DNA from: Tubiluchus corallicola
Taxonomy: Eukaryota > Priapulida > Priapulimorpha > Priapulimorphida > Tubiluchidae
Length of the DNA: 64,000 bases
NCBI GenBank assembly: GCA_030141605.1
Contig: JAQGDQ010000531.1
Span: 22,501 to 86,500 of the forward strand
Direction of reading: 5' to 3'
Each line of letters starts with the position of its first letter. The first letter of the stretch is position 1. The position numbers and the translations under genes are program-made. The notes under the pieces were generated by a model. That model was not told the origin of the DNA and did no database searches. It saw nothing but the letters and a program-made list of their open reading frames with translations. Shown here piece by piece: positions 2,833-62,386 of this stretch.

Positions 2833-2977
2833 CTTATGAAAAAATGCAGCTCCACTTAAAACCATGGATAGTTGACAGGTCGGGTCCCTAATGTACTCCC
2901 ATGCTTTGTTTTCATAATTCCACATGTGTGATCGTCCTTCAAATCCAACTATTCTATAACGTTGCTCTTGCCACACC
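2833..2977 (-). CDS. EXTL3: EXTL3-like exon 4 (GT64 domain)
   Basis: This 145-base exon enters in phase 2 and leaves in phase 0. It encodes '[19 protein letters not shown]' and '[15 protein letters not shown]', matching VWREARDRIVGFPGR and SMVLTGAAFFHK of the family. The acceptor TCTAG lies before 2977 and the donor AAG|GTAACA after 2833. The next exon should begin with a YYAYLYSY-like motif; none was seen to the left edge. Confidence 0.92.

Positions 2978-62386: not shown

Follow-up and report, generated by a model that had tools for sequence, protein, structure and literature searches.

Genes of animal glycan pathways are generally taken to be scattered, and in human EXTL3, NDST and B4GAT1 are unlinked. 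The closest described systems are the canonical heparan sulfate genes (EXT1, EXT2, EXTL3 and NDST) and the GT49 genes B4GAT1 and LARGE of matriglycan synthesis. Human B4GAT1 is placed on chromosome 11 (PMC8478517, on matriglycan enzymes). The genome of Alvinella pompejana shows an over-representation of carbohydrate sulfotransferases, in a list that also includes a family related to UDP-D-xylose:L-fucose alpha-1,3-D-xylosyltransferase and a methyltransferase family (PMC12403961).

The locus described here brings divergent members of such families together. The window, meaning the whole stretch of 64,000 nucleotides of Tubiluchus corallicola that was analysed, covers bases 22501-86500 of C2337, a contig of 152,607 bp; the assembly comprises 2,344 contigs and 343.5 Mb. 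The window contains no N and has a GC content of about 36%. It is considered fairly probable that it belongs to a cluster of genes for Golgi carbohydrate enzymes that is specific to the lineage and has been duplicated repeatedly. No such cluster was found among the open-access papers listed as matches, as judged by their titles and the openings of their abstracts.

Gene content of the window

The Pfam scan took in much of the six frames of the window: the plus strand except 13300-15500, 21800-27407 and, within both 20100-21800 and 56560-64000, one frame in three, and the minus strand except one of the three frames of 1-2200 and two of the three frames of 17186-33790, 33790-34060 and 40700-52200 (the long open reading frames there being included). 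Only glycan enzymes or transposon parts exceeded the curated cut-off in the scanned part. The Rfam search at gathering scores and the tRNA search of the window gave no matches, and neither did a COX1 search of the whole genome. The first-pass annotation had listed three genes and dead copies of three more, and both sets are present. The first comprises an EXTL3-like gene on the minus strand and, on the plus strand, a GT49 and an NDST gene, all open in every exon found; the second comprises glycogenin, GT10 and HS6ST-like relics, identified by tblastn, Pfam and PDB matches and interrupted by stops. All features are collected in Table 1.

Table 1. Features of the window (window positions) and of the right flank of contig C2337 (positions preceded by C2337)
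Feature	Position	Strand	Evidence and remarks
Glycogenin-like relic	803-1495	-	aligns without introns, several stops; tblastn 9.9e-28
EXTL3-like, GT64 exon	2833-2979	-	PF09258 3.7e-23 over the frame; tblastn; followed by GTAACA
EXTL3-like, GT64 exon with LDDD	4701-4835	-	PF09258 5.6e-10; tblastn, human probe
EXTL3-like, GT64 exon	12328-12501 (borders approximate)	-	tblastn, human probe, 1.3e-14
EXTL3-like, first exon, GT47 domain	17186-18793	-	535-aa open frame; exon ends slightly before the frame
DNA upstream of GT49	26694-27067	.	blastn: 83% like the DNA that immediately precedes the C1850 EXTL3-like gene
GT49 (B4GAT1/LARGE-type), first exon	27408-28361 (open frame); exon end 28343, before GTAAAA	+	PF13896 Glyco_transf_49 2.9e-43
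GT49, probable middle exon (CRLC...WEPVYIG)	31426-31552	+	by eye, from the open-frame list; AG before, GT after
GT49, last exon and stop	33819-34097	+	PF13896 7.5e-18
GT10 (fucosyltransferase-type) relic	36495-37337	-	PF00852 1.8e-15, PF17039 1.6e-9; stops
HS6ST-like relic	37991-38537	+	tblastn 2.4e-28, human probes only; stops and a frame change
NDST, first coding exon, HSNSD_N	40727-41565; donor GTAAGA at 41566	+	PF25119 7.9e-39; PDB NDST1 7.6e-28
NDST, deacetylase exons	~43989-44063, 45390-45521, 47128-47229, 47640-47735	+	PF12062 8.1e-20, 1.6e-21; tblastn
NDST, deacetylase exon	within 46132-46320	+	by eye
NDST, later deacetylase/sulfotransferase exons	~51709, 52732, 55331, 57811, 58131, 58911, 61666-61797	+	tblastn
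Methyltransferase	C2337:91593-92645	-	Pfam above cut-off; EGF part by eye
Sulfotransfer_2	C2337:97981-98877		Pfam above cut-off
Two Nucleotid_trans	C2337:106821-107816, 115483-116529		Pfam above cut-off
Galactosyl_T (GT31-like)	C2337:108814-109431		Pfam above cut-off
GT2-like open reading frame	C2337:116966-118066		named by eye; no match above cut-off
DUF268	C2337:121155-122237		Pfam above cut-off
Weak sulfotransferase	C2337:142447-142902		below Pfam cut-off

The EXTL3-like gene carries GT47 followed by GT64 and is nearest to EXTL3 among the exostosins by Pfam, PDB and an 8-sequence tree. The frame of its first exon matches Exostosin_GT47 (PF03016, 5.8e-27) and, in the PDB, EXTL3 best (8.7e-57, EXT1 following with 3.5e-23). 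Neither the window nor the readable part of C2337 showed its last exon or exons; contig bases 17501-22500, which adjoin the window on the left, read N. A one-to-one orthology with human EXTL3 was rejected: the copy on contig C1095 is the one that pairs with human EXTL3 (support 0.82, 8-sequence tree), with an identity of 0.39 versus 0.31 for the window copy. To the canonical EXTL3 of its own genome the window gene is 45% identical over 360 columns.

The GT49 gene had been called B4GAT1-like and matriglycan-type. The GT49 domain is there, in two exons; the name B4GAT1 proved too precise and was rejected, since the gene reads DVE instead of DXD and is one of at least 40 GT49 first-exon matches in the genome. 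The term matriglycan-type is not supported either, this being a copy from a large family with a changed DXD. The copy on contig C1850 also reads DVE, and four canonical GT49 copies of the same genome read DVD or DID in the alignment; DXD is taken here to be the metal motif of GT49. Genome-wide profile searches scored the best candidates only, so all counts from them are lower bounds. At least 88 GT49 matches were obtained, of which at least 40 start at profile positions 1-5 and were counted as first exons; 7 of these are of the canonical type and extend at least to profile position 273, whereas the other 33 stop at 192-235. Exon 1 stops near profile position 204 in the window copy versus past 270 in canonical copies. 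Several of these first-exon matches contain stops, and three sets of matches have equal scores, which suggests redundant contigs. In the third exon the window and C1850 copies differ by 1 synonymous and 6 non-synonymous changes, that is, without constraint. This copy may encode an altered enzyme or a partner protein that is not itself catalytic. The likeness of the DNA upstream of GT49 to that upstream of the C1850 EXTL3-like gene (blastn pair L004:478-872 to C2337:49567-49194) would fit a shared divergent promoter region and is taken as a lead only.

The NDST gene joins HSNSD_N (PF25119), deacetylase (PF12062) and sulfotransferase parts in one gene, the last recognised by tblastn and having no Pfam match. 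Thirteen exons or exon matches were identified; the last short exon was not located. The stretch had been drawn as far as 62386, an end for which no accounting feature was found, the last NDST match stopping at 61797. The motifs DIDD and GPTKTGT are kept, as are three histidines that by eye line up with FWWFPHMWSHMQPH of the human protein, and the assignment of catalytic residues among these motifs is presumed. The first exon is 41% identical to the canonical NDST of the genome. PF25119 has at least 4 matches genome-wide, two being canonical NDST and two divergent (C1850:119067 and the window). The canonical gene appears at C1338:159466 and C1677:897587, 100% identical over the 3,636 bp compared, and with this exact duplicate the assembly holds redundant contigs. 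Just past the first NDST coding exon (window 41806-42020) lies a dispersed repeat of about 216 bp, 72-79% identical to DNA upstream of the EXTL3-like genes on C1812 and C1850 and likewise to DNA near or in the EXTL3-like gene of C813.

Among the broken copies, the glycogenin relic is also matched by glycogenin in the PDB (3.4e-20, open reading frame 779-1240) and by PF01501 (2e-5). The HS6ST-like relic has no Pfam match in the three plus frames there. Adjoining the glycogenin relic, 1781-2560 (minus strand) is broken and LTR-retrotransposon-like by eye; remains of a non-LTR retrotransposon, with endonuclease and reverse transcriptase domains, occupy about 6043-8301 (minus strand). A DUF1759 match at about 38.7-39.0 kb (plus strand) is presumably also a retrotransposon part.

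Flanks of the window

Further glycan-type genes, which the first-pass annotation had proposed to look for outside the window, were found on the right of C2337. Ten open reading frames of this flank were put to Pfam, six passing the curated cut-off and four having no match above it. The best PDB match of the GT2-like protein is POMGNT1, a weak one (0.036), and its structure model is poor (mean pLDDT 38.7). For the open reading frame L018:6447-6902 the PDB gave no match at E values up to 1. At the far end of the contig (C2337:147223-152607) there are tandem units, one pair being 99% identical over 2.3 kb, which carry sulfotransferase-like fragments by eye. On the left, C2337:1-22500 (7501-10000 and 17501-22500 being N) gave nothing at E 0.01 with glycan-gene tblastn probes.

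Recurrence of the linkage

GT47 has at least 9 matches at 8 loci in the genome: EXT1-like on C1015, EXTL3-like on C1095, C19, C1850, C813, C2337 and C1812, and a two-exon locus on C1173 which is the putative EXT2. Within 40 kb of each of the two divergent NDST genes, on the same contig, lie genes for an EXTL3-like protein, a GT49 protein and an EGF-methyltransferase. On C2337 these are EXTL3-like (-, 41 kb), GT49 (+, 50 kb), NDST (+, 63-84 kb) and methyltransferase (-, 92 kb); on C1850, NDST (+, 119 kb), methyltransferase (-, 148 kb), GT49 (-, 155 kb) and EXTL3-like (+, 158 kb). When C1850 is reversed, EXTL3(-) GT49(+) MT(+) NDST(-) stands beside EXTL3(-) GT49(+) NDST(+) MT(-) of C2337, so that the order is alike apart from an inverted NDST-methyltransferase block. 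On both contigs the EXTL3-like and GT49 genes stand head-to-head. At least three pathway genes are thus linked, and the linkage recurs.

Three of the pairs between C2337 and C1850 are young: NDST first exon (89% protein identity, dS 0.114), GT49 first exon (87%, dS 0.185) and methyltransferase (308 codons, 91%, dS 0.138), with introns and upstream DNA matching too. The EXTL3-like genes of these contigs, 44% identical with dS 1.3, belong by their sequences to two old lineages. The close relative of the window copy lies on C1812, where a collinear EXTL3-like gene (exon-bearing stretches 80-89% identical, others 70-80%) is accompanied by a methyltransferase gene. EXTL3 exon 1 shows 85% protein identity between C2337 and C1812 (dN 0.073, dS 0.160), with dN/dS reaching 1.17 in one stretch of 90 codons; the old pairs between the same contigs are the methyltransferase (70%, dS 1.3) and the GT2-like protein (42%). 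The synonymous distances within this block clash, 0.16 for EXTL3-like versus 1.3 for methyltransferase, which suggests gene conversion or stepwise copying; the pieces of the cluster thus underwent copying or conversion at different times. The dN/dS values lie between 0.30 and 0.46 for the methyltransferase, GT49 exon 1, NDST exon 1 (computed from its dN and dS) and EXTL3 exon 1 (against C1812).

The linkage is partial elsewhere. C1812 has no NDST among the PF25119 matches listed, and C19, C1812 and C1095 have no GT49 among the matches listed in the genome-wide search, which leaves 3 of the 6 EXTL3-like loci with a GT49 gene on the same contig. C813 carries two GT49 genes, the closer of which is separated by about 36 kb from the EXTL3-like gene; by eye, a sulfotransferase-like open reading frame lies 19 kb from that EXTL3-like gene. 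The surroundings of the canonical EXTL3 (C1095:50001-90000) showed no other glycan gene by eye in frames of at least 120 aa, a length below which short-exon genes could escape. Canonical EXTL3 and canonical NDST are on contigs other than C2337 and C1850. An ancestral block was among the explanations offered in the first-pass annotation. The locus is no block of the canonical heparan genes of this genome: the cluster genes are divergent paralogues and the canonical copies lie on other contigs.

Origin of the cluster

The main rival, and a serious one, is passive co-duplication, by which segmental duplications would have swept up accidental neighbours from swollen glycan families, genes that have neither a product nor regulation in common. 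This is somewhat unlikely as the full explanation. Several observations favour it. At least 40 GT49 first-exon matches, several of the matches with stops, populate the genome, and families of this size likely make some neighbours by chance, which weighs against a cluster; there are broken copies inside the block; three EXTL3-like contigs lack GT49 among the matches listed; and C1812 and C1850 have different subsets of the C2337 block at similar dS, as passive copying predicts. The young pairs of C2337 and C1850 probably arose by the copying of a single block, and their recurrence is therefore to be counted once; it proves duplication rather than independent gathering and is still compatible with a copied chance neighbourhood. 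Passive copying, however, leaves the first association of EXTL3-like, GT49 and NDST, and of the methyltransferase and additional glycan enzymes with them, to luck. With 6 EXTL3-like and 40 GT49 loci, one NDST gene would find both partners within 60 kb with a probability of about 3e-5, a figure that assumes random placement and was computed after the find. Moreover, nothing but glycan enzymes or transposon parts was recovered above the cut-off in the scanned parts of the window, and the same partners adjoin two old EXTL3-like lineages. An accident is unlikely given this first association, the additional glycan enzymes on C2337 and the two old lineages beside the same partners.

That a single locus could underlie C2337, C1850 and C1812, as diverged haplotypes or through assembly artefacts, is very improbable. 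The assembly does contain exact duplicates (the canonical NDST contigs and the three equal-score GT49 sets), but the young pairs differ by dS 0.11-0.19, the old EXTL3 and methyltransferase pairs exceed 1, gene content differs, an inversion is present and the window has no N; the synonymous distances and the differing content led to rejection of this reading.

A chance neighbourhood of unrelated genes, which large enzyme families and a window chosen after the fact would favour and which three genes in the window alone would not rule out, is hardly credible and was rejected as main reading, being opposed by the low random-placement figure and contradicted, unless the contigs are misassembled, by the return of all four genes on C1850 and of two of them on C1812. 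From the choice left earlier between chance, an ancestral block and a genuine cluster, pure chance is thus unlikely, and what stands is a recurrent, duplicated linkage, complete on C1850 and partial on C1812.

Proposed organisation and meaning

The lineage-specific cluster would be a gene block that has stayed linked and been duplicated as one piece, its enzymes producing a heparan-like sulfated polymer under putative co-regulation. Its core would be the head-to-head EXTL3-like and GT49 genes, the bifunctional NDST and the protein combining EGF and methyltransferase parts; on C2337 this core would be extended by the Sulfotransfer_2, the two Nucleotid_trans, the GT31-like and the DUF268 genes. 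The EXTL3-like and GT49 proteins may build an alternating chain of GlcNAc/uronic-acid type, which NDST and the sulfotransferases would modify and the remaining transferases and the methyltransferase would decorate. The broken GT10, HS6ST-like and glycogenin copies may be what gene turnover in this region has left behind. A more specific form is offered tentatively, as a possibility: a polysaccharide cluster of duplicated heparan-type enzymes with sulfotransferases, glycosyltransferases and a methyltransferase, copied as a unit, with a promoter shared by the EXTL3-like and GT49 genes, and a sulfated polymer outside canonical heparan sulfate, for instance in tube, mucus or egg coat.

If this is true, the gathering of divergent heparan-type, GT49 and sulfotransferase genes in a recurrent cluster would indicate a sulfated polysaccharide particular to the lineage, whose pathway could be read off the genome as with bacterial capsules. 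It would also be a test case of how animal pathway genes become linked and stay so.

Comparison with known systems

In Alvinella pompejana (PMC12403961) the part of the account used here gives family sizes and no EXTL3/GT49/NDST cluster; the methyltransferase there is of another Pfam type, and genome GC is 43% versus about 36% in the window. With B4GAT1/LARGE the GT49 copy of the window shares the GT49 domain over most of the profile, and it differs from them in its DVE, its shorter first exon and its membership of a family with at least 40 first-exon matches. The canonical heparan sulfate genes have the same domain families as the cluster, GT47 and GT64 in the EXTL3-like gene and deacetylase and sulfotransferase in NDST. 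The motifs LDDD, DIDD and GP.KTGT are common to both sets, whereas the identities to the canonical genes (41% for the NDST first exon, 45% for EXTL3) and the location of the canonical copies on other contigs mark the cluster genes as divergent paralogues.
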